Shown piece by piece: positions 158 through 36,651 of a stretch of 64,000 nt of DNA (position 1 is its first letter; each line of letters opens with the position of its first letter). Under the pieces are notes generated by a model that was given only the letters and a program-made list of their open reading frames with translations, made no database searches and had not been told where the DNA came from. This DNA is from Desulfobacterales bacterium (GTDB lineage: Bacteria; Desulfobacterota; Desulfobacteria; Desulfobacterales; JAIPEE01). The DNA lies in contig JAIPEE010000005.1 of NCBI GenBank assembly GCA_021737275.1, positions 62,001 through 126,000 on the forward strand, written 5' to 3'. The position numbers and the translations under genes were made by a program.

Positions 158-643
158 TCACTGCGCCAGCTCCGCAAACTTCTTTTTAAGGTTAATCACA
201 AGTTCCACTTCCCCTGTCGGCATGGACACTTTGTTGCCAATGGCTTCCGCATCAAACCCCTTTTCATAAAGCTGAATGATTTCACTCTGATAATCGTTTG
301 TATATAGCTGCTCCCCGACTTTGATCTTATCAGCCCGCTTCAGATACTCATCAGCCCTGTTTAAAAGAAGATTCAAACTGATAATTCTGCTTTCCAGCTT
401 TTCGTTGAGCTCTTTAATGAGCCGTTTCTTCTCTCTTAACTGAATATCGAATTCTTTTGCTGTTGTGTGGGTCTCTTTTAAAATCGGTTCAAGCATTGAT
501 GTAATATGTTTTACAGATACGCCTAAATTTTTTGAGTATGTAGCAGCCTGTAGTGTTCTGAAAAAATACAGTATCATTCCAATAATAATCAGATCAATAA
601 CCATCTGACAAATGACCCAGAATTCAATTGAAAAAAAATCCAT
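158..643 (-). CDS. DUF2802-type membrane-anchored coiled-coil protein
   Basis: A 161-residue protein with one N-terminal transmembrane segment (about residues 9-28). A charged stretch likely to form a coiled coil follows (about 50-105), then a small C-terminal helical domain (about 118-158) whose pattern (YEKGFDAEAIGNK, then GEVELVINLKKK) resembles DUF2802. DUF2802 proteins are commonly found at the ends of flagellar clusters in Proteobacteria, but no function is established. The C-terminal domain looks like a degenerate helix-turn-helix. It is the last gene of the minus-strand cluster, about 200 bp after the small charged protein, and is followed by a terminator. The DUF2802 assignment is from memory of the family pattern and is moderately sure. 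Confidence 0.7.
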   Translation of the reverse strand: MDFFSIEFWVICQMVIDLIIIGMILYFFRTLQAATYSKNLGVSVKHITSMLEPILKETHTTAKEFDIQLREKKRLIKELNEKLESRIISLNLLLNRADEYLKRADKIKVGEQLYTNDYQSEIIQLYEKGFDAEAIGNKVSMPTGEVELVINLKKKFAELAQ

Positions 644-845: not shown

Positions 846-1157
846 TCAGGCTACCGTATTCAGCAGGCGCCCCCTGCCTTCAATTTCCTTTTTTTTTGCC
901 GCATCTTCTTTTTTCTTTCGCTCACGTTCCTGACGTTCCTGTTCCCGTTTTTTTAACTGATCAGGATCGAGTTGAGCCTGTTCGGATTCATCAGAAGCCT
1001 GGACAACCGTTTGCTTTTGTTCATCTTTGCCCTGCTGGTCCTGTGCGGCAACGGCCTGATTGAAATCATGCCCCTGATGCCTGACATTATGTGCATCGCG
1101 GGCTGCGCCACCCTGCTGAACCACAATGTTTACTTCCGATATCGGTGTTACGGACAT
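846..1157 (-). CDS. Small charged protein of the flagellar cluster, function unknown
   Basis: A 103-residue soluble protein with no signal peptide or membrane segment. The first half is rich in Gln, Ala, His and Asp. Residues about 66-92 are a dense run of Lys, Arg and Glu likely to form a helix. The protein ends in GRGRLLNTVA, where the GRLL pattern is the most conserved-looking part. The ATG at 1157 is preceded by AGGTAAGGGAA, which supports the start. It lies between the FliL-like repeat protein (74 bp upstream) and the DUF2802-type gene. I do not recognise it. Its position suggests a flagellar accessory or export-related role, but this is inference only. Confidence 0.65.
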   Translation of the reverse strand: MSVTPISEVNIVVQQGGAARDAHNVRHQGHDFNQAVAAQDQQGKDEQKQTVVQASDESEQAQLDPDQLKKREQERQERERKKKEDAAKKKEIEGRGRLLNTVA

Positions 1158-1230: not shown

Positions 1231-3069
1231 CTATATAATATCATAATTTTCGATAAATATATTATTAATAACCTCTTTATCCAGAGAAAGATTCAATGTT
1301 TTTTGAATGGCTGACTCGAGGGTAACCTGGTTTATTTGTGACTTGTCCATCGCCCTCAGCGTATTTTGTAACAACTCATATATTATATTTCGGAAAAAAG
1401 TTGTATTCTCTTTAATTTGTTGGTGTGTTTTCGGATCCGTCACCTTAACGGCCACATCCATTATCATATATGAAACATCCGACCTTGCCGAAGGCGGCAG
1501 AATCACAAAACTGTTCATTGCAATGATGGCGGCATCTCCGGTTACAGGCTGCAGATTGTTATAAGCTGTCTCCGGCAGCACTATCTTGAACGTATTTGAA
1601 GCAACCGGCTGTTTTTCATTGAAAAAGCTTTTCACTGTAAAAAAAAGAGGGACAGATATCATCAGTAAAAGAATGGCTGCTGCTGCCGGTTTAAAATATC
1701 TGTTTCGATAAAGTGCCTGCAACTTCTTTTTATTATAAAGATTACGAAATTTTGCCAGACTGATAACGTTGCCCAATGAAAATTTTTCTTTTGGACCATA
1801 CACATCTGCAACTTCATCCGGTGCTTCCAGAATGACCGGCTCTTCAGCAAGCGCTTCGGGCGATTCCGATTCGTCTGCTGCCGCAGCAGTCTCAACAGGT
1901 GTTACATCTTCTTCTATGGCCTCGTCATCTTCTTCCAGGGCAAGCAGTGCATCCAGATCAGCCTGAGATACCAGGCTTGACGTCTCATCTTTATCCGGTT
2001 CGGGAACAGGCGCCTCTTCGTCTGTAGGTGCTGAAAAAAGGTCATCGAGATCATCCTGAGATATCATCTCGGACCCGGCTTCTTCTACAACAGACTCGCC
2101 TGCTTCAGAAGATTCTGCAAGTAATGTATCAAGATCTGACTGCGTCATTATGCCTGTATAGGGCTCTTCTTCAACCGCTTCAGGGACAGACTCTTCCAGT
2201 AAGCCATCAAGATCCGACTGGGATATTAACGCTGTACCTTCTGATTGTTTCTCCTTTAGGGAAGATGTAGCTTCATCTGCTGATGCGGCTTCTTCCAGCA
2301 AAGCATCAAGATCCGACTGGGTCAGTAAATCGGGTTCTTCGGCTGCAGATTCTGCTTTTGTTTTGGTTTCTGACTTTACTTCACCCGATTCAGGTTCCTC
2401 TTCTGTTGCTGCCTCATCAAGCAAGGCATCAAGATCCGACTGAGATAAAAAATCAGCGTTTTCTTCATCCGAAGCAGTTTCCACATTTGATTCTGAGGGG
2501 GCAGGCACCTCTTCAACCGGTTTCCCGTCAAGCAGCGCATCCGGATCAGCCTTGGATAAGGTTTCAGATGATTTTATCTTTTCAATCTCTTCGATTGCAG
2601 CAGCATTGTCAAAAAGAGCATCAAGATCATCCTGAGAAACCATATCCGAGCCTGGAGCTGATTGAGCCGGCACTTCAGCAATTGGTTCGGTTTTTTCGTC
2701 TGCAGCAGATTCATCACCGGTCGGATCATAAGGATCTATATCTTCAAACAATGCATCAAGGTCAGCCTGAGAAACCATATCTGATTCGCTGACTTCTGTA
2801 GTAACAACGGGCGCTTTTGTTATCTCTTCAATAAGCTCTTCCTGAGCAACGATATCTTCATCTGTCAGCGTATCTTCATCTGCCAGCGTATCTTCAGTCT
2901 TGCCTGAACCGCTATCAGCCTCCTCAAACATTGAATCAAGTTCCGACTGATCAATAAGATCATCGTCTGAACCGGGAATAATCCCACTGTCAGCAAGATC
3001 TTCAAACAACTCATCAAGATCTGACTGGCTGATTTGTAAGGCACTGTCTTTATCGTTGTTTTCTGCCAT
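1231..3069 (-). CDS. FliL-like membrane protein with about 12 FliM-N-type (CheY-docking-like) motifs
   Basis: A 612-residue protein. Residues 1-430 are highly acidic, probably disordered, and carry about twelve copies of a motif of the form [SDT]Qx[DE]LD[AESTG][LM][FL]. A basic segment (about 437-460) precedes one membrane helix (about 461-478). The C-terminal part (495-612) shows the FliL pattern: MNSFVILPP, a DVAVKVTDP strand, a long helix over FFRNIIYELLQNTLRAMD, and a final strand FIENYDII. The FliL of this cluster has the corresponding LDFFVVNLADPG, LRDAVLIHLSS and YFTEFVIQ. FliM here starts with ILSQDEVDSLL, and in well-studied bacteria the FliM N-terminus binds phosphorylated CheY. The inferred topology is array in the cytoplasm and FliL-like domain in the periplasm. 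The gene follows fliA by 36 bp. No family name is known to me. Coding status is very sure; function is inference. Confidence 0.85.
   Translation of the reverse strand: MAENNDKDSALQISQSDLDELFEDLADSGIIPGSDDDLIDQSELDSMFEEADSGSGKTEDTLADEDTLTDEDIVAQEELIEEITKAPVVTTEVSESDMVSQADLDALFEDIDPYDPTGDESAADEKTEPIAEVPAQSAPGSDMVSQDDLDALFDNAAAIEEIEKIKSSETLSKADPDALLDGKPVEEVPAPSESNVETASDEENADFLSQSDLDALLDEAATEEEPESGEVKSETKTKAESAAEEPDLLTQSDLDALLEEAASADEATSSLKEKQSEGTALISQSDLDGLLEESVPEAVEEEPYTGIMTQSDLDTLLAESSEAGESVVEEAGSEMISQDDLDDLFSAPTDEEAPVPEPDKDETSSLVSQADLDALLALEEDDEAIEEDVTPVETAAAADESESPEALAEEPVILEAPDEVADVYGPKEKFSLGNVISLAKFRNLYNKKKLQALYRNRYFKPAAAAILLLMISVPLFFTVKSFFNEKQPVASNTFKIVLPETAYNNLQPVTGDAAIIAMNSFVILPPSARSDVSYMIMDVAVKVTDPKTHQQIKENTTFFRNIIYELLQNTLRAMDKSQINQVTLESAIQKTLNLSLDKEVINNIFIENYDII
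1942..3030 (-). repeat. Coding repeat array: 12 SQxDLDALL-type motifs
   Basis: Motif cores fall at residues 14, 40, 75, 100, 145, 172, 209, 250, 283, 309, 337 and 368. Those at 75 (AQEELIEEI) and 172 (SKADPDALL) are degenerate; the other ten keep Q or K, an acidic residue, L, D and a final LF, LL or MF. Spacing varies from about 26 to 45 residues and the linkers do not repeat. The motif itself is therefore what selection keeps, rather than a simple tandem duplication. The DNA still shows recurring TCAAGATC and GATCCGACTG words, consistent with past duplication of single modules. Confidence 0.85.
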
Positions 3070-3105: not shown

Positions 3106-3855
3106 TTATTCTGCAAAATAGTGTTTCAGCTTGAGTTTCAATTTAATCAACGCCATTGAATGTATTTGACAAATTCTTGATTCCGTCAGATCAAGTACGT
3201 GTCCGATCTCTTTCAGTGTCAATTCATCAAAATAATAAAGGGATATAACGACCTGTTCTTTTTCTGAAAGCCGTTTAATACCCGTGGCAATAACTCTTTT
3301 CAGTTCCTCACGGGCAATATTATCAGAAGGATCATCATGGTTGCTGAGTCTGTCTTTATAGGAGCGCCTGGCAGCCCTATCTTTATCTTCTGATTTAATA
3401 TAGTCATCCAGACTCAGCAGGGCAACACCGTGAATACTGGAAAGCATATGAAAATAAGCTTCCAGCTCAATCCCAAGTTGTTCAGCAACCTCCGTATCCT
3501 CTGCCGGCCTTCCAACACGAGCCTCAACTGCGGTTACAGCCTTTTCAATATCCTGTATTTTTTTCCGCATAGGTCGTGAATACCAGTCCAGGCTCCGTAG
3601 TTCATCCAGGATGGCGCCTCTTATGCGGTATTCGGCATATGTCTTGATGTCAACATCCCTGCCCGTATCAAACTTATCAATGGCATCAATAAGCCCGACA
3701 CAACCGGCACTGAGTAATTCTTCAAAAAGTACGCTCGACGGCAGACGCATGGAAATTCTACCGGCAATATACTTTACCAGAGGCGCATATCTAACGATCA
3801 TTTCATCGCGGGTTTTACGATCAAAACCGGGCTGTTTTTTCCCGTTAACTGTCAT
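3106..3855 (-). CDS. fliA: RNA polymerase sigma factor FliA (sigma-28)
   Basis: A 249-residue sigma factor of the FliA/WhiG type. Region 2 spans about residues 20-90 (YAPLVKYIAGRISMRLP, then ELLSAGCVGLIDAIDKFD), region 3 about 95-165, and region 4 about 190-245 with the helix-turn-helix LTLKEIGHVLDLTESRICQI. It directs transcription of late flagellar genes such as flagellin, which lie outside the window. Length fits the family (about 240). It follows flhG by 136 bp, and a sigma-70-like promoter is visible in that gap. I saw no FlgM anti-sigma gene here and no clear sigma-28 promoter upstream of any gene in the window. Confidence 0.95.
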   Translation of the reverse strand: MTVNGKKQPGFDRKTRDEMIVRYAPLVKYIAGRISMRLPSSVLFEELLSAGCVGLIDAIDKFDTGRDVDIKTYAEYRIRGAILDELRSLDWYSRPMRKKIQDIEKAVTAVEARVGRPAEDTEVAEQLGIELEAYFHMLSSIHGVALLSLDDYIKSEDKDRAARRSYKDRLSNHDDPSDNIAREELKRVIATGIKRLSEKEQVVISLYYFDELTLKEIGHVLDLTESRICQIHSMALIKLKLKLKHYFAE

Positions 3856-3991: not shown

Positions 3992-4906
3992 TTACTGCTG
4001 CATTTTGTAATCAACAAAACGCTTCATAAAAAACTTTATATTGCCGTCATATTCTGAACGGCGCGGCCATTTCAGAAAAGTATCGGCTATTTTTTTTATT
4101 TGTCCGCTGACAATCGAATCAGGATAAAGAGATATCACTGTCTTTCTTTGCCTTACCGACTCGCGAACACTTTCATCAAATGTAATATAACCGGCATATT
4201 CGATGACAATATCATTTAAGAAACGCTCCGTAGCCTGGCAAAGATTCTGATAAACGGACTTTGCTTCAGCAACATCCTTCACCATATTCATAAGCAGCTT
4301 AAAATGTTTTGTATCATGCCGGGTAGACATTACCTTGATCATGGCATATGCATCCGTTACAGATGTCGGCTCCGGCGTTGCAACAATAACGCAATCATCT
4401 GCCGCAATGTTAAAATACAATACATTGGTTGAAATACCGGCACCGGTATCAATCAGAAAGATATCCACCATATCACCAATTGTTTCAAATTCACTCAAAA
4501 GACTGAGTTTCTGTCCTTCGGTCAGATGCGTAAGGTTGACAAATCCTGAACCGGCCGGGATGATATGTATGCCCTTTGATGCTTCAACAATAATTTCCGA
4601 AAGCTGTTTTTCCCCGTTTAAAACGTGACCGATATTAAATGTCGGATGAATACCGAAAATGATATCAATATTGGCAAGTCCCAGATCTGCATCCAGAATT
4701 AAAACCCGTTTCCCCTGTGAAGCAAAAGCCATGGCAAGGTTGCCGACAATATTTGTTTTTCCAACCCCGCCTTTTCCACTGGAAACGGATATAACCCTGG
4801 GACCAAGGCCATTTACATTACCGGTCTGAGTTGAAGAGGGAATGTTTTTTTTAATATCTGAAGATTGTTTATCAACCATTTTTCTCAAACTGCTTGCCTG
4901 ATCCAA
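3992..4906 (-). CDS. flhG: Flagellar number regulator FlhG (FleN/YlxH), MinD-like ATPase
   Basis: A 304-residue ParA/MinD-family ATPase. The deviant Walker A is SSGKGGVGKTN at residues 42-52. LILDADLGLANIDIIFG carries the switch I/A' region and LIDTGAGIS is the Walker B. The extreme N-terminus MDQASSLRKMV matches the DQAxxLR motif by which FlhG stimulates the FlhF GTPase in other bacteria. With FlhF it sets number and placement of flagella, and in polar flagellates it also antagonises FleQ. The C-terminus should hold a membrane-targeting helix, less clear here. It follows flhF by 339 bp, an unusually large gap that contains its own promoter and two repeat hairpins. Confidence 0.95.
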   Translation of the reverse strand: MDQASSLRKMVDKQSSDIKKNIPSSTQTGNVNGLGPRVISVSSGKGGVGKTNIVGNLAMAFASQGKRVLILDADLGLANIDIIFGIHPTFNIGHVLNGEKQLSEIIVEASKGIHIIPAGSGFVNLTHLTEGQKLSLLSEFETIGDMVDIFLIDTGAGISTNVLYFNIAADDCVIVATPEPTSVTDAYAMIKVMSTRHDTKHFKLLMNMVKDVAEAKSVYQNLCQATERFLNDIVIEYAGYITFDESVRESVRQRKTVISLYPDSIVSGQIKKIADTFLKWPRRSEYDGNIKFFMKRFVDYKMQQ

Positions 4907-5245: not shown

Positions 5246-6388
5246 TTAGCGCATGACCAGTTTCATAATCTCTTTTTGAGTTGCCGGCATTATATCTTCG
5301 GGAACACTCTGGCCGTTTGTAATAAAAGATACCGGCAAGTCCCGTTCAGCTATCTGGTCAAGAATAACCCCGCACTGCTGTGTTTCATCTACTTTTGTAA
5401 AAACATATGATTCCGGATTGAGTATGCTGAAGTTTTCAGCGGCATCCTTCATATCCTGGCGCTTTGTTGTTGCGCTTAAGACAAGATGAGTGCTGATCTC
5501 GGGCTTTCCGGCCATCAGTTGGTCCAGTTCATTCATCCGCGCCATATCCAAATGGCTGTGACCGGCCGTATCAATCAGGATAATTTCCCTGTTTTGCATT
5601 TTTTCAAGTGCAATTTCCAGATCCTGTTTTGAAAATGCGGGCAGACATGGAAGTCCCATAATTGATGCATAGGTTTTAAGCTGCTCAACAGCACCGATAC
5701 GATAGCTGTCTATTGAAATAATGCCGACCTTCTTTTTCTGTTTCAGACTCAGCTCTGCTGCCAGTTTGGCAATGGTTGTTGTCTTGCCGACACCTGTCGG
5801 CCCGACAAATGCTGCAATCCGGGTATCCCTTTTTTTCCCGGAAAAGGGATTTTCAACCTTGATGGATGTTAAAATGGCTCGAATTGACTTTTTTGTAATG
5901 TCGCGAGATCCGAAGCGATTTTTCGCATCAAAAGCACCGGCCTTTTTTAAAAACATCCGGATACGGTTGGACGACATCCCGTTTTGAACCAGTTTTGTAT
6001 AAAGCGTAAGGCATGCCGGGTGAATTTTAAGCAGATCGGGCATATTTTCACCCTGATTCATCAGATAAAGCATATCTTTTATGCTGATCAACTCATCCCG
6101 AACACCGGCCCACTCATTTACTTCACAGGGTTCTGTAACAGCGCCGGAAAATGTTTGCGGCTTTCCCGCCAACCTTATCGAAGACTGGTTGATATTACTT
6201 TTCAAAGGCTTTTCAGGAAAAGAATTTTTGTCTGACGCGCTTATCTCAAAAAGATCCTTCCCATATGGATCAAGAAATCCCTTTGGTATTCGTTTGGTTG
6301 AAAGAATCATTGCATCCGGTCCGAAATCCTCTTTGATCTGTGTAATAGCTTCATGAATGCTGTGTGCCTTATACTGTTTAACTGCCAT
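5246..6388 (-). CDS. flhF: Flagellar biosynthesis GTPase FlhF
   Basis: A 380-residue SRP-type GTPase. The N-terminal B domain (about 1-110) is variable and basic-to-neutral. The N domain spans about 115-185 and the G domain about 190-380, with P-loop GPTGVGKTT (196-204), IDSYRIGAVEQLKTYA, G3 DTAGHS (273-278) and a TKVDE-type G4. The family usually has DTAGRS at G3, so His replaces Arg here. FlhF recruits early flagellar components, often to the cell pole. The ATG lies inside the 3' end of flhA (11-bp overlap), so the two genes are translationally coupled. Length is normal for the family. Confidence 0.95.
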   Translation of the reverse strand: MAVKQYKAHSIHEAITQIKEDFGPDAMILSTKRIPKGFLDPYGKDLFEISASDKNSFPEKPLKSNINQSSIRLAGKPQTFSGAVTEPCEVNEWAGVRDELISIKDMLYLMNQGENMPDLLKIHPACLTLYTKLVQNGMSSNRIRMFLKKAGAFDAKNRFGSRDITKKSIRAILTSIKVENPFSGKKRDTRIAAFVGPTGVGKTTTIAKLAAELSLKQKKKVGIISIDSYRIGAVEQLKTYASIMGLPCLPAFSKQDLEIALEKMQNREIILIDTAGHSHLDMARMNELDQLMAGKPEISTHLVLSATTKRQDMKDAAENFSILNPESYVFTKVDETQQCGVILDQIAERDLPVSFITNGQSVPEDIMPATQKEIMKLVMR

Positions 6389-12408: not shown

Positions 12409-12747
12409 TTACGCAAGACTTTTTACCCTCTCCATCGGACTGATAATATCAGTCAGTCTGACACCGAATTTTTCATTCACCACAACAACTTCACCCTTGG
12501 CCACCAGCTTTCTGTTTATATAAATTTCAAGCGGTTCGCCGGCGAGTTTGTTCAGCGTAACAATTGATCCCTGCCCAAGTTGCAGCAGATCATAAACCAG
12601 CATTTTTGTTTTACCCAGCTCCACTGAAAGCTCCAGGGGGATTTCCAGAATAAAATCAAGATCGCGTTCAGATTGTTCAGCCGCTGCTTCAAGTTCAGCT
12701 TCCTCTTTTGATACTTCTGCTTTTTCTGTATTATTATTTTCAGCCAT
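12409..12747 (-). CDS. fliN: Flagellar motor switch protein FliN
   Basis: A 112-residue protein from the ATG at 12747. An acidic N-terminal tail (about 1-35) precedes the SpoA domain (about 38-110; LEIPLELSVELGKTKM, then LNKLAGEPLEIYINRKLVAKGEVVVV). It forms the lower C-ring with FliM and is a docking site for FliH and the export ATPase. This start is chosen because GGAGAAGGG lies just upstream and because ATGGCTGA overlaps the fliM stop by 8 bp. A longer reading from 12813 would run deep into fliM. Confidence 0.95.
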   Translation of the reverse strand: MAENNNTEKAEVSKEEAELEAAAEQSERDLDFILEIPLELSVELGKTKMLVYDLLQLGQGSIVTLNKLAGEPLEIYINRKLVAKGEVVVVNEKFGVRLTDIISPMERVKSLA

Positions 12748-13732
12748 AACCCTTCTCCATATGTAATTTACTTTGCACCCTGAATGCCTGGAAACCACGC
12801 TGAACACCGGCAAAGCCCTTGAATTTTTCTACGTTTTCAATACAGGCGATAAGCGGTTTTTCAGCATCCTGATCAAGCTGTATAACATCGCCCACCTTCA
12901 AATGCATCAGGCGTTCCCCGCTAATTTCAGTTGACCCGAGCTGGGCCCCGAAAGTTACTGAGGATTCAAGAATAATCTCTTTGACCCGTTTGATCCATGT
13001 ATAGTCTTTTTCAAGCCGGTCACTCTGAAACCCTGATGAAAGCTTGCTGCGAATAGGTTCTATCATTGCATAGGGAATACAAACCGTAATAGAACCTGCA
13101 CTCTGATCCAGTTCAACTTCAAACTTGGATACCATAACCAGATCGGTCGGCAATACAATTGTTGCGAACTGTGGATTTACTTCAGACCTTACATAATGTG
13201 TCTCAATTTTTTCAACCGGTGCCCAGGCCCTTTGGATATCCTTCAGACATTCAGCCACCACCTTATCGATAATTACATTTTCAATAGCTGTAAATTCCCG
13301 ACCCTCAATCTTGGCTTGACCGGCACCGGTTCCGCCAAGAAATGTCTCAAGCAGATTAAACACCAGCCGGCTTTCAAGAACCAGCAAGGCATGGCCCCTG
13401 AATGGCTCCATACGATAAACATGCAGGCTTGTCGGAACAGGAAGGGATCGCCCGAATTCTGAAAACTTCAATGTATTTACAGATTCCGGACTGATATCCA
13501 GTGTTACCCTGAGCATATTGGAAAGGCTCTCTTTCATGCCGCCGGCAATTCGCTGGTTTATCAGTTCAAGTGTCGGCATTCGACCCCTTACAACTCTGTC
13601 CTGTGCATCAAAGTTGTAAACGGAGACCTCTTCAGGCTCCTGTTCACTTGTATCAGCCTCTGCCTCTACCTTTCCCGTGCTTAAACCGGAAAGTAAACTG
13701 TCAACTTCGTCCTGTGAAAGTATTTCATTCAT
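12740..13732 (-). CDS. fliM: Flagellar motor switch protein FliM
   Basis: A 330-residue switch protein. The N-terminal MNEILSQDEVDSLLSG carries the family's CheY-P binding motif (residues 4-14). A linker leads to the CheC-like middle domain (about 50-240, with GGTGAGQ and IENVIIDKVV) and a C-terminal SpoA domain (about 255-325). It sits in the C-ring, receives CheY-P and sets the rotation sense. It overlaps fliN by 8 bp and follows fliL by 9 bp. Its N-terminal motif closely resembles the repeat unit of the 612-residue protein at 1231-3069. Confidence 0.97.
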   Translation of the reverse strand: MNEILSQDEVDSLLSGLSTGKVEAEADTSEQEPEEVSVYNFDAQDRVVRGRMPTLELINQRIAGGMKESLSNMLRVTLDISPESVNTLKFSEFGRSLPVPTSLHVYRMEPFRGHALLVLESRLVFNLLETFLGGTGAGQAKIEGREFTAIENVIIDKVVAECLKDIQRAWAPVEKIETHYVRSEVNPQFATIVLPTDLVMVSKFEVELDQSAGSITVCIPYAMIEPIRSKLSSGFQSDRLEKDYTWIKRVKEIILESSVTFGAQLGSTEISGERLMHLKVGDVIQLDQDAEKPLIACIENVEKFKGFAGVQRGFQAFRVQSKLHMEKGYG

Positions 13733-13741
13733 AATATCAAA

Positions 13742-14239
13742 TTATTGAATAACAAACTCGGTAAAGTAAAGGTTACTAATCTTCCCGCCCCTTATTAGCT
13801 GGTTAATTCTGAGAATCAGCTCATTTTTCAGGGCAATTTTATCTTCTATCGTCTGTATCTCGTTGATACTTTTGCTGCTTAAATGAATAAGGACGGCGTC
13901 TCTCAATTGGGGCAGGCGCGCCTCAAGCTCAGCCTTGATCTCTTCACCAAAATATTCCATTTCCACCTTGGTTTTAAGGTAGCGTTTTCCACCCGGATCG
14001 GCAAGATTTACGACGAAAAAATCAAGGGGATATATCTTACCGTATTCTACCACCTCTTCTTCGGCAGATGCTTCTGCAGTATCTGTTTCAGCTTCGTTAT
14101 CACCGGACAGCATCGTCCAGCCGACAAACCCGCCGGCACCTAAGAGCACTACCACCAGAATGATGATAATCAGCTTAAGAGGAGATTTTTTAGGTTTTTC
14201 GCCTTCTGCTCCTTCTTCTTTTTTTTCTTCTTCAACCAT
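13742..14239 (-). CDS. fliL: Flagellar basal body-associated protein FliL
   Basis: A 165-residue single-pass membrane protein. An acidic and Lys-rich cytoplasmic tail (1-22) precedes a membrane helix (about 23-45), an acidic linker, and the periplasmic FliL domain (about 70-165: YPLDFFVVNLADPGGKRYLK, then LRDAVLIHLSSKSINEI and YFTEFVIQ). FliL surrounds or stabilises stator units. It lies between motB and fliM in the motA operon. A second protein in the window, at 1231-3069, carries a diverged copy of this domain. Confidence 0.95.
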   Translation of the reverse strand: MVEEEKKEEGAEGEKPKKSPLKLIIIILVVVLLGAGGFVGWTMLSGDNEAETDTAEASAEEEVVEYGKIYPLDFFVVNLADPGGKRYLKTKVEMEYFGEEIKAELEARLPQLRDAVLIHLSSKSINEIQTIEDKIALKNELILRINQLIRGGKISNLYFTEFVIQ

Positions 14240-14263: not shown

Positions 14264-14998
14264 TTAATGAGGCCGTTTTAAAACAAACTCTACTCTTCTG
14301 TTTTTTGACCTGTTCCCTTCGGTATCATTCGGAAACCTTGGTAACATATCGCCATAGCCGCCGGCTGCCAGTCGCCCGGGATCAATCCCAAGGCTATCGG
14401 TAAAGTAGTAAAGGACGCTGAGCGCACGGTATACTGAAAGATCCCAGTTGGACCCGAAAGGTCCGCCGCGTATGGGAACATTATCAGTATGGCCCATAAT
14501 CAGAATATCATTGGATGCATATTTAATTAACATTCCCAGTGCATCAAGCGTATGCAGCCGGTCGGGGGTGATAGATGCATTTCCCGGCTGAAACAGATTA
14601 TCTGCTTCAAGTGATATGACAACCCCCCGCTCATCATCGGTTACGTCAATAATATATTTTAAATTTTCCAGCTCATCCTGCCACTCAAGGCTTTCAATAC
14701 TTTTTAAAAAATCAATCGCCTCTTCCAGCCTCTGGTTACTGGAGATCATCACCGATCTTGAAAAAGTCTCACTTGCAAAAATATCAGCAAACTTGCCGGA
14801 AATATCCCTGTATTCAAGGGGACCGCTTGTCGGCTGTTTCTGTTTAAAGACTTTTTTATACTCCTTTGTATCCATTGATTTCATGGTCAAAAGCAATACG
14901 AAAAATGTCAGCAGCAACATAACCAAATCACCGAATGTCACCATCCATGCATTGGGATCGGGTCCAAAATCTTCTTCGCCGCCTTTGTCTTTAGCCAT
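14264..14998 (-). CDS. motB: Stator protein MotB (PomB-like), canonical ion-binding Asp
   Basis: A 244-residue stator subunit. The single membrane helix (about 18-40) has WMVTFGDLVMLLLTFFVLLL with the ion-binding Asp at residue 24. A plug/linker region follows (about 41-120), then the OmpA-like peptidoglycan-binding domain (about 125-243; IMGHTDNVPIRG, RALSVLYYF, NRSKNRRVEFV). The TFGD...FFVLL pattern is closer to PomB than to E. coli MotB, but H+ or Na+ use cannot be decided by eye. It is the third gene after motA and the second MotB-like gene. Confidence 0.93.
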   Translation of the reverse strand: MAKDKGGEEDFGPDPNAWMVTFGDLVMLLLTFFVLLLTMKSMDTKEYKKVFKQKQPTSGPLEYRDISGKFADIFASETFSRSVMISSNQRLEEAIDFLKSIESLEWQDELENLKYIIDVTDDERGVVISLEADNLFQPGNASITPDRLHTLDALGMLIKYASNDILIMGHTDNVPIRGGPFGSNWDLSVYRALSVLYYFTDSLGIDPGRLAAGGYGDMLPRFPNDTEGNRSKNRRVEFVLKRPH

Positions 14999-15043
14999 AA
15001 ATAAATCCGATTAAAAAAATTTGTCTGTACCGTTCAAAAGTGC

Positions 15044-15880
15044 TTACTCAAAAACCCTGAAGAAAAAGTTCTTAAAGGTAAAACCGCCTTCAGGCTTGCC
15101 CATAGACGGTTCAAGGTAGAACACAATATCAATTCTTTTATTATATGCCCGTGTTTCCTGCGTACTGTTGCTGTATTCAGGATGATATTTACCCCAACCA
15201 TATGCAGTCAAGCGATCTGCCGGTACATTATTTTTTGTTGTCAAATATTTTAATACATTTAATGCACGTATTGATGAAATCTCACGGTTCGTCATATATC
15301 GGTTCTCCGGCGGCATATTATCCGTATGACCGACAATCTCAACCGGAAGATCATTATTCAAAATCGTTTTACTCACTCTATCCAGCAATTCATCTGCTCC
15401 GGATTTTATTTCGGTATTTTCCCCTTCAAACAATTCACTGGCCGGAATACTGAATATCTTTTTTGTCTTTTCAACAATAATAGCGTAATCAACCGGCTTG
15501 ACAACCGTACCGGGCCTGTCAAAAAGGACTTCGGACGAGACTCTCAGTACGGTACCCCGCTGACTCGTCTTTATATAAAGATCCTTTGCGCCGGAAGTTT
15601 CCTCCTGGTAAAGATCTGTAAAATCAACCATTGAGGTCATCGCCTGTATGGTTGAAAGATCCAGGTTAACGCCATCTCCCTCGAGATTTGAAAATCCGCC
15701 GGAGAGGATCCCGAAGCTTTCCAGAAGAGATCCGAGAGCGGAAAGTTTTCTCTCCTCATCAACAACCGCAATGGCATTCAGCAGAATAAAAAACGCAAGA
15801 ATGATGATGAATAACGAAACAACCAGCATCGCATTCAGATCTACATCCCGTTCTGCGCCACCTCTCTTTTTTTTGCCCAC
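15044..15880 (-). CDS. MotB-like OmpA protein lacking the ion-binding Asp
   Basis: A 278-residue protein with the MotB layout: a short basic cytoplasmic tail, one membrane helix (about 16-38), a linker, and an OmpA-like domain (about 150-265; VEIVGHTDNMPPENR, RALNVLKYL, RAYNKRIDIVF). Aligning the helix on the shared FF pair places Ser22 (codon TCG) where MotB has its essential Asp. The segment reads LNAMLVVSLFIIILAFFILL, and acidic residues occur only before the helix (D12, D14) and after it. It probably cannot conduct ions alone. It may pair with MotB in a mixed stator or act as a peptidoglycan anchor. It sits directly between motA and motB. Confidence 0.85.
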   Translation of the reverse strand: MGKKKRGGAERDVDLNAMLVVSLFIIILAFFILLNAIAVVDEERKLSALGSLLESFGILSGGFSNLEGDGVNLDLSTIQAMTSMVDFTDLYQEETSGAKDLYIKTSQRGTVLRVSSEVLFDRPGTVVKPVDYAIIVEKTKKIFSIPASELFEGENTEIKSGADELLDRVSKTILNNDLPVEIVGHTDNMPPENRYMTNREISSIRALNVLKYLTTKNNVPADRLTAYGWGKYHPEYSNSTQETRAYNKRIDIVFYLEPSMGKPEGGFTFKNFFFRVFE

Positions 15881-15968
15881 TGCCGGTTTCCTGTATTAGC
15901 GTTAAAAACCTGAAAAATTATAAACTCTTTTACATTATATTTTTAGCATCCATACCTGATAACCCATA

Positions 15969-16730
15969 TTAGTCGGATGCCGGACGCTGTTTTGGTGCAA
16001 CAAAAGAGACCAGCTTCTGTTCAAGGATCCTGGGGTTTTCCCCCTTTGTAAGAGATAAAACGCCCTCGATAATCATCTCCTTGACCAGGGTCTCTTCTTT
16101 ACTCCTGGTTTTGAGTTTTCCCGCAATAGGCATACAAATCATATTGGCCATTACAGATCCATAAAATGTTGTCAGCAATGCAACCGCCATAGCAGGGCCG
16201 ATGGAACTGGGATCATCCATGGATTGAAGCATCTGCACGAGGCCGATCAGGGTGCCAATCATACCCAGTGCAGGCGCAAATGTAGCCAGCGTCGTAAAAA
16301 TATCTGCCCCGAGCTTGTGGCGTTCGCTCAAATAGGTTACTTCCGTATCCATAATATCCTGTATGGCCTGGGGTTCAAGACCGTCAACAGCAAGCTGGAT
16401 ACCTTTCTGAAGAAATGTGTCATCAATTTCCTTTGCATCGGACTCAAGTGCCAGAATACCCTCACGACGTGCCTTGGAACCAAATTCCACGAACTGTTTG
16501 ATGATATCATCAACAGAAAGGGCTTTGGCAAAGAGCACATTCATACCGACACCAACGGTACCGAGGACCTCCTTAAGAGGATAATTGATCATCGTTACCC
16601 CGAGCGTACCACCGACAACAATGGCCAGTGAGGGAATATTGACAAATAACATGATGCTGCCGCCCATCAGGATAGCAGCGAGAACAAGACCGAATGCAGC
16701 GATAGTACCGACTAATGTTGCAATATCCAT
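15969..16730 (-). CDS. motA: Stator protein MotA (PomA-like)
   Basis: A 253-residue protein with four membrane helices (about 5-25, 30-50, 150-172, 182-205) and a cytoplasmic loop containing the conserved RREGILALE segment that contacts FliG. The third helix region FAPALGMIGTLIGLVQML is typical. Five MotA surround two MotB subunits in the stator. It is first in its operon, about 100 bp downstream of a near-perfect sigma-54 promoter. The short family form (about 250 residues) fits PomA and delta-proteobacterial MotA. Confidence 0.95.
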   Translation of the reverse strand: MDIATLVGTIAAFGLVLAAILMGGSIMLFVNIPSLAIVVGGTLGVTMINYPLKEVLGTVGVGMNVLFAKALSVDDIIKQFVEFGSKARREGILALESDAKEIDDTFLQKGIQLAVDGLEPQAIQDIMDTEVTYLSERHKLGADIFTTLATFAPALGMIGTLIGLVQMLQSMDDPSSIGPAMAVALLTTFYGSVMANMICMPIAGKLKTRSKEETLVKEMIIEGVLSLTKGENPRILEQKLVSFVAPKQRPASD

Positions 16731-35621: not shown

Positions 35622-36002
35622 TCAATTAAAAATTTTCTCAAGTTTTTCTGTGATTGCTTCTGCAGTAAACGGTTTAACAACATAATTGGAAACACCGGCC
35701 TGAACAGCCTCAATAACATTCTGTTTCTGGGCTTCCGCTGTAACCATCAAAAACGGCAGGCCTTTAAGGTCTTCATCTGAACGAACTTTTTTCAGGAGAT
35801 CAAGGCCGGTCATCTTGGGCATGTTCCAGTCAGAAATAATCATGTCAAACTGACCTTTTTTCAGCTCTTCATATGCCGTTGTTCCATCATCGGCTTCAGT
35901 TATATTTGAAAAACCGATCTGTTTTAAAATATTTTTCATGATTCGACGCATTGTGGCAAAGTCGTCTACAATCAATATTTTCATGGACATATCCATAGCC
36001 AT
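35622..36002 (-). CDS. cheY: Chemotaxis response regulator CheY
   Basis: A 126-residue single-domain receiver with all catalytic residues: acidic pair D13/D14 (LIVDDF), phospho-acceptor D58 (ISDWNMP), Thr in LMVTAEA and Lys in YVVKPF. DWNMP is the typical CheY phosphorylation motif. The ATG at 36002 is preceded by GGGAGGATACAGT. It follows cheX by about 105 bp. CheY-P would bind the FliM N-terminus and, by inference, the similar motifs of the protein at 1231-3069. No cheA or receptor genes are in the window. Confidence 0.95.
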   Translation of the reverse strand: MAMDMSMKILIVDDFATMRRIMKNILKQIGFSNITEADDGTTAYEELKKGQFDMIISDWNMPKMTGLDLLKKVRSDEDLKGLPFLMVTAEAQKQNVIEAVQAGVSNYVVKPFTAEAITEKLEKIFN

Positions 36003-36107: not shown

Positions 36108-36578
36108 TCAGGACTGTTTTTCGAGACAGACTTCAATAAGAAAATTACCCTCCTCAATGGAAAAGGGAATTGCAATCTGTGGTCCTTTGGTTATATGGGC
36201 AATACAGTGGTTTTTTCCGGTAATAACAGATGGAATAGCCGCCTCAAAAACTTTGCCGATACTTTCAAGCTCTCTCCTGGCCTGTCCGGAAATCATGTTT
36301 GTCAATTCTCCAACGGCATCTGCCACTTCGCTGTCAAGCTCTTTCATCTCCTCACCAAACATATTGGATACAATTTTGAGGATACTACCCTCTTCAAATG
36401 TTACATAAATTGTGCCATTGGCTTCACCTGTAACACCGATAACGCCTGTGACATCACCTCTTGCGACATTATCTTTTTTTAAAAAAGGTTTGCCTGCTTT
36501 TGTTGATTTTACAAAGGCCATGGTTTCGAGCACATTCATTGTAGCCTTTATAAAAGGGTTTATCATTTCAGCATCCAT
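36108..36578 (-). CDS. cheX: CheX-type CheY-P phosphatase
   Basis: A 156-residue protein from the ATG at 36578, chosen because GGAGG stands 7 nt upstream; a longer reading to 36614 lacks such a site. It contains the CheC/CheX active-site pattern ExxN in AVGELTNMISGQARREL, plus the fold signature (NPFIKATMNVLETMAFV, GTIYVTFEEGSILKIV). CheX dimers dephosphorylate CheY-P. Only one ExxN motif is seen, which fits CheX rather than CheC. The gene lies immediately upstream of cheY, so signal and quencher are made together. Confidence 0.9.
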   Translation of the reverse strand: MDAEMINPFIKATMNVLETMAFVKSTKAGKPFLKKDNVARGDVTGVIGVTGEANGTIYVTFEEGSILKIVSNMFGEEMKELDSEVADAVGELTNMISGQARRELESIGKVFEAAIPSVITGKNHCIAHITKGPQIAIPFSIEEGNFLIEVCLEKQS

Positions 36579-36651
36579 TACAAGTCCTCCATCGTAAAGC
36601 AGGTTCAGCACCATTTATCCGCAGGAACCCGGAATCGTTATTATCTAAAAA

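Follow-up and report, generated by a model that had tools for sequence, protein, structure and literature searches.

The window, our name for the whole 64,000-nucleotide stretch of Desulfobacterales DNA analyzed here, contains at 1231 to 3069 an intact reading frame for a protein of 612 residues within a flagellar operon. Because a separate, ordinary fliL lies at 13742 to 14239, near fliM and motB, we regarded this gene as a second fliL and named it fliL2. The relevant features are as follows:

158..643, reverse strand: FipA-like membrane protein (DUF6115/DUF2802; in Pfam, DUF6115 above cut-off and DUF2802 below cut-off)
846..1157, reverse strand: hyp103, a small charged protein conserved after fliL2 and before the FipA-like gene, recurring in homologous loci
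1231..3069, reverse strand: fliL2, FliL paralogue with an N-terminal motif array
1237..1530, reverse strand: predicted periplasmic FliL-like domain of FliL2, about residues 514 to 611 (PF03748 in homologues, HMM matches, fold match)
1633..1689, reverse strand: predicted single transmembrane (TM) helix of FliL2, residues 461 to 479
1702..3069, reverse strand: predicted cytoplasmic acidic tail of FliL2 carrying the array, about residues 1 to 456
3106..3855, reverse strand: fliA sigma factor gene, immediately upstream of fliL2 (Pfam)
3992..4906, reverse strand: flhG, MinD-type ATPase, two genes upstream of fliL2 (matches FleN and FlhG structures)
5246..6388, reverse strand: flhF, operon neighbour, named by its place between flhA and flhG, its SRP-GTPase-like sequence and the conserved gene order
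12740..13732, reverse strand: fliM (PF02154), with the N-terminal motif SQDEVDSLL at about 13691-13717
13742..14239, reverse strand: canonical fliL, beside fliM and motB (PF03748, E 8e-24)
35622..36002, reverse strand: cheY, proposed partner (best PDB matches are CheY, 6e-51; FliM-contact residues largely kept)
36108..36614, reverse strand: cheX-type phosphatase gene, beside cheY (PF13690)

The stator genes of the window (14264-16730, reverse strand) comprise one MotA-type and two MotB-type genes (14264-14998 and 15044-15880), and the product of the latter MotB-type gene has only a weak plug-domain match. In homologous loci, the FipA-like gene is followed by a conserved gene whose product, of about 95 residues, looks like part of FlhB (L018, 12955-13230, forward strand, with equivalents in other loci).

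The initial annotation described a FliL-like protein fixed in the membrane, and both attributes were borne out. Full-length FliL2 had no Pfam match at an E value of 0.01, and its C-terminal domain had none in NCBIfam; against PF03748 the window protein alone reached 8e-4 (20.3 bits, under the 24.6 cut-off). PF03748 was matched in 12 of 14 homologous FliL2 C-domains (best 3.9e-8), and an alignment of 14 homologues detected FliL among PDB sequences at 1.2e-9 and 7.8e-8. By hhalign, the C-domain alignment matched the canonical FliL of the window at an E value of 4e-11. When an AlphaFold2 model (pLDDT 84) was used for a fold search of the PDB, the top 11 matches were FliL only (TM score 0.65 to 0.79 on the target), followed by stomatin SPFH domains. 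The hydropathy maximum and a helix in the model both placed a single TM helix at residues 461 to 479. The tail that precedes it is strongly acidic (136 D/E, 24 K/R), and a basic stretch just before the helix would, by the positive-inside rule, put the array in the cytoplasm. The cytoplasmic placement in the initial annotation is thus supported, while its description of the array as one half of the protein is not, the tail making up the N-terminal 75% or so of FliL2.

Sequence and model together indicate that FliL2 is a FliL paralogue and not an ordinary FliL. Both proteins combine a single TM helix with a C-terminal, SPFH/stomatin-like periplasmic domain, but the cytoplasmic stretch of FliL2 is about 455 residues long and bears the motif array, whereas that of ordinary FliL is short. 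In addition, fliL2 is a second copy besides the canonical gene and follows fliA instead of lying in fliLMN or motAB. The proposed position next to the stator draws its support from FliL homology, which places FliL2 probably in the stator or basal-body zone; gene position lends it none, as fliL2 belongs to the fliA locus, with some 11 kb between it and either the stator genes or the canonical fliL.

Twelve motifs of the SQxDLDxL[LF] type are distributed along the acidic tail:

3004..3030, reverse strand: motif 1, SQSDLDELF, residues 14-22, pattern match
2926..2952, reverse strand: motif 2, DQSELDSMF, residues 40-48, pattern match
2821..2847, reverse strand: motif 3, degenerate, AQEELIEEI, residues 75-83, relaxed pattern
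2746..2772, reverse strand: motif 4, SQADLDALF, residues 100-108, pattern match
2611..2637, reverse strand: motif 5, SQDDLDALF, residues 145-153, pattern match
2530..2556, reverse strand: motif 6, degenerate, SKADPDALL, residues 172-180, relaxed pattern
2419..2445, reverse strand: motif 7, SQSDLDALL, residues 209-217, pattern match
2296..2322, reverse strand: motif 8, TQSDLDALL, residues 250-258, pattern match
2197..2223, reverse strand: motif 9, SQSDLDGLL, residues 283-291, pattern match
2119..2145, reverse strand: motif 10, TQSDLDTLL, residues 309-317, pattern match
2035..2061, reverse strand: motif 11, SQDDLDDLF, residues 337-345, pattern match
1942..1968, reverse strand: motif 12, SQADLDALL, residues 368-376, pattern match

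The strict pattern yielded ten of these and the relaxed pattern added the two degenerate ones, in agreement with the count of twelve and the multivalency first proposed. The linkers differ from one another and are acidic, also as described, and the motif spacing is irregular (26 to 64 residues). In 2,000 composition-preserving shuffles of FliL2, the strict pattern matched 0.009 times on average and never more than once, ruling out chance or composition as the origin of the array. Recent tandem duplication was likewise rejected as the whole cause: the linkers differ, and TRF found no tandem array of the motif unit in the window DNA, only an 18-bp, 2.4-copy patch at 2853-2896. All genome-wide statements here come from pattern and profile searches. 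A degenerate form of the motif pattern gave 24 sites in the genome, compared with 8 in a reversed control; nine of the 24 fell in FliL2, one in FliM and the others in unrelated or noncoding contexts. A single-sequence AlphaFold2 prediction of full-length FliL2 (mean pLDDT 41) formed short helices over about 8 of the 12 motifs, which is suggestive only.

FliM of the same cluster starts MNEILSQDEVDSLL, confirming the motif SQDEVDSLL at its N terminus, and no motif of the FliM-N type is present in the FliN of the window. When the repeats, and nothing else, were turned into a profile and compared with all PDB sequences, the top match was FliM residues 3 to 20 at an E value of 0.016, a modest figure for which the profile length of only 19 columns accounts; there were four matches in total, and the other three were unrelated. 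The FliM-N residues that contact CheY are L6, Q8, I11, D12 and L14, together with L15 in the Vibrio cholerae model and position 16 (PMC3774744). Among 224 unique repeats, Q8 was Q in 222 and L14 was L in 217; L6 was represented by I, V or L, I11 by I or L, D12 by D or E, and L15 mostly by L, M or F. Position 16 was free and the noncontact positions A9 and A13 varied, while S7 and E10 were also conserved despite their absence from the contact list in PMC3774744. The counted sites were defined by the motif pattern, which introduces some ascertainment bias into these conservation figures, but these preferences also appeared under a looser Q.....L selection, so the search pattern alone does not account for them. 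Judged by sequence, then, the resemblance of the repeats to FliM holds at the CheY-contacting positions, and the designation of the motif as FliM-N type is sustained.

The predicted partner surface is also largely kept. CheY of the window, by its sequence a canonical CheY, retains A90, K92, Y106, V108, K119 and K122, with the conservative changes I95V and A99V as well as K91Q. Of 15 genomes tested, 14 had a close CheY orthologue (E value of at most 3.1e-50). The single exception, G033, also lacks FliM and FlhA, and the lack of FlhA makes its missing CheY uninformative about the partner of the array. Outgroup families, and also a single member of the order, have the gene order fliA-cheY-fliL2, and at four loci of one family a single nucleotide separates the cheY stop codon from the fliL2 start. 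Adjacency and array do not coincide: the cheY-adjacent fliL2 genes have no motif, and the array-bearing fliL2 genes have no adjacent cheY. The conservation of contact residues, the proximity of cheY to fliL2 in relatives and the cheX-type phosphatase gene next to cheY in the window cluster favor CheY-P as a plausible partner, and docking of CheY in some form, whether as a buffer or reservoir near the motor or as a sink or brake, is likely.

Arguments against a CheY array are that it would give CheY no avidity and that this part of FliM is also a binding site for FlhG. FlhG interacts with the FliM N terminus in polar flagellates and with the FliY N terminus in Bacillus (PMC11236974, PMC12327844, PMC12826062). 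The array might accordingly dock FlhG, alone or carrying FliM/FliN, at the flagellar site and so control flagellar number and C-ring assembly in a HubP-like manner, in a lineage equipped with FlhF, FlhG and a FipA-like protein. This is the main rival to CheY docking, which the initial annotation does not name; it is unlikely, but has several observations behind it. The fliL2 operon includes flhG and encodes a FipA-like protein, and nearly all array loci with intact flanks have the order flhF-flhG-fliA-fliL2-...-DUF2802/FipA-like; the DUF2802 proteins include FipA, a binding partner of FlhF (PMC11620751). Moreover, with two sites in its ATP-bound dimer, FlhG could gain avidity from a multivalent tail. 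Against this, the repeats match the published FliM-CheY contacts and related fliL2 genes adjoin cheY. In Geobacillus FlhG, K177, R207 and F215 are needed for FliY-N binding. The numbering relied on an offset of 8 in the PDB chain that is consistent with all three residues, and on this numbering the R207 position is S, T or N in 29 of 29 array genomes. Array-free members of the order have mostly lost R207 as well.

If CheY is the partner, the array could instead serve as a CheY-P sink or brake that outcompetes FliM for CheY-P, or hands it to CheX, and so reduces reversals. This reading, which we consider rather improbable, shares the docking evidence of the reservoir reading, and docking sites per cell could far outnumber FliM sites. 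In the window genome, cheX adjoins cheY and a CheZ search gave no match, making another way of limiting CheY-P conceivable. However, cheX is not encoded with fliL2, and a FliL anchor would be superfluous for a soluble sink. Four of 15 genomes had CheZ matches, and every one of the four carries an array; the array is therefore no simple stand-in for CheZ, and the presence of CheZ showed no pattern as a predictor of the array among these genomes.

FliL2 is apparently a widespread flagellar protein of the Desulfobacterales without earlier description. Searches of relatives, the phylum and the order yielded 68 FliL2 proteins, of which 34 contained at least two strict motifs, with up to 16 in one frame. 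Homologues with 2 to 16 motifs occupy the same locus in many Desulfobacterales families, including those from Desulfobacter latus AcRS2, D. vibrioformis DSM 8776, a D. postgatei metagenome-assembled genome and Desulfospira joergensenii DSM 10085, and the locus order flhA-flhF-flhG-fliA-fliL2-(hyp103)-DUF6115/DUF2802 is nearly fixed. A contig profile scan with the C-domain of the window FliL2 gave no match; the Desulfobacteraceae alignment as query did. The repeat-only profile had two or more matches in at least 36 of 117 genomes of the class. Apart from one genome (G471), multi-match frames among the matches listed were FliL2 or its contig-edge or frameshifted pieces. In genome G008, which has 26 repeat-profile matches, two contig ends each carry part of fliL2.

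A tree of the FliL-like domain (106 columns, with many forks unresolved) requires the array to have been gained or lost at least five times; families f41, f39, f3 and f23 form a clade, mostly without arrays, that is nested inside the order. Copy number varies even among close kin (7, 13 and 16 in family f26; 2 to 9 in f35). Across ten close pairs, not all of them independent, pooled motif positions had a dN of 0.06 at a dS of 0.57, compared with 0.24 at 0.70 for linkers and 0.15 at 0.61 for the C-domain; motif positions were picked from a single member of every pair, and some ascertainment bias applies here as well. The motif is under purifying selection, which is stronger than that on the linkers or the C-domain. 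Fast copy-number change, diverged linkers and a constrained motif would fit a multivalent tail in which the units matter and their spacing does not. Neutral repeat expansion without function is accordingly very improbable: copy number fluctuates, and some relatives have recent-looking repeat copies, some adjacent repeats being near identical in L229 and L020, but the motif residues are kept while linkers diverge in many families, and a broken gene was met only once. In that case (G498, single contig; L189, 2358-4600, reverse strand), an apparent frameshift has put the array and the FliL domain into separate reading frames.

Several other short elements were seen in these genomes. Outgroup FliL2 tails adjacent to cheY contain a different conserved short peptide, about SDDELWDxxxxxDDVSLFDE, which may be another docking element, at the following loci:

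L087, 10855-11814, forward strand: outgroup FliL2 with SDDELWD-type peptide
L088, 9386-10348, forward strand: outgroup FliL2 with SDDELWD-type peptide
L090, 9505-10824, reverse strand: outgroup FliL2 with SDDELWD-type peptide
L091, 15329-16513, forward strand: outgroup FliL2 with SDDELWD-type peptide

A FliN-like protein of other Desulfobacterota has a single motif of the FliM-N type, for example SQEELDKLL:

L087, 1707-2258, forward strand: FliN-like protein with a single motif
L088, 16-597, forward strand: FliN-like protein with a single motif
L091, 4872-5705, forward strand: FliN-like protein with a single motif
L099, 11239-11682, reverse strand: FliN-like protein with a single motif
L103, 10739-11185, forward strand: FliN-like protein with a single motif

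In the array-free genome G038, FliM (L119) reads SQSEVNSLL, with N in place of the D that pairs with K119 of CheY, and FliL2 of the same genome (L028, 9353-10510, forward strand) has a long linker after the TM helix.

Finally, the array may engage some other partner, for instance a receiver-domain protein other than CheY or part of the C-ring, or may act as an assembly or spacing element, the resemblance to a CheY ligand being incidental. Each genome has 44 to 297 first-look receiver-domain candidates, and FliL2 tails of relatives outside the array-bearing clade are acidic but unrelated. Nevertheless, the FliM match holds at the contact positions and came from a search of all PDB sequences, and we judge this explanation to be improbable.

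We therefore favor, by a little over an even chance, a membrane-anchored array at the motor that docks CheY, or CheY-P, as a buffer or local reservoir. The periplasmic SPFH-like domain and the TM helix would anchor FliL2 in the inner membrane, probably in the stator or basal-body zone, while the long, acidic and largely unstructured tail would present many copies of the FliM N-terminal peptide to the cytoplasm. On phosphorylated CheY, each repeat would form a short helix against the alpha4-beta5-alpha5 face, in the manner of FliM-N, and the array would keep CheY-P at the membrane near the C-ring, buffering the switch; its net effect may be to feed the C-ring or to compete with it. Because CheY is monomeric and offers a single docking face, the array would raise local capacity and not affinity. 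A C-ring contains a few tens of FliM. In other bacteria, FliL forms decameric rings round the stators (PMC9195833), and if FliL2 enters rings of this type, each could hold on the order of a hundred docking peptides. Stator recruitment promotes CheY-P binding in Escherichia coli (PMC8440544), and a store of CheY-P at the motor could couple stator occupancy to switching. More tentatively, and with the chances somewhat against it, the CheY-P reservoir would be built into the stator ring itself, with lineages tuning the CheY-P held beside the C-ring through the number of docking peptides.

All modules of FliL2 are known; their combination appears to be new. The motif is the same segment of about 11 residues as the N-terminal EIDAL segment of FliM, with the CheY-contacting residues conserved. 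FliM has one N-terminal copy, whereas up to about 16 occur in FliL2, a membrane protein in which Pfam (E value of 0.01) detected neither the CheC-like middle domain nor SPOA. FliY and FliN proteins with an N-terminal EIDAL segment are C-ring proteins with a single docking motif, in contrast to the multiple motifs of FliL2, and FliY-N binds FlhG (PMC6946799, PMC12327844). The C-terminal helix of CheZ uses the same face of CheY as FliM-N does (PMC3774744), but FliL2 differs from CheZ in having no match to its phosphatase domain (PF04344) in Pfam. HubP/FimV proteins are alike in outline only, as large membrane proteins with acidic cytoplasmic repeats and genes near those for FlhF, FlhG and FipA-like proteins. 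They have a periplasmic LysM domain and the opposite domain order, Pfam found no LysM or FimV domain in FliL2, and no link to them was seen at the sequence level. In searches of the open-licence literature, neither a FliL with repeated FliM-type motifs nor any multivalent CheY-docking protein came to light.

Motor control by CheY-P is thought to start on the rotor, where each FliM supplies a single docking peptide. If our reading is correct, an array on a FliL paralogue shifts the handling of CheY-P (or of FlhG) to the membrane and stator side, and we know of no such stator-side layer of chemotactic control in other bacteria. With 0 to about 16 copies, the Desulfobacterales would offer a natural series for testing local binding capacity against switching or flagellar number.
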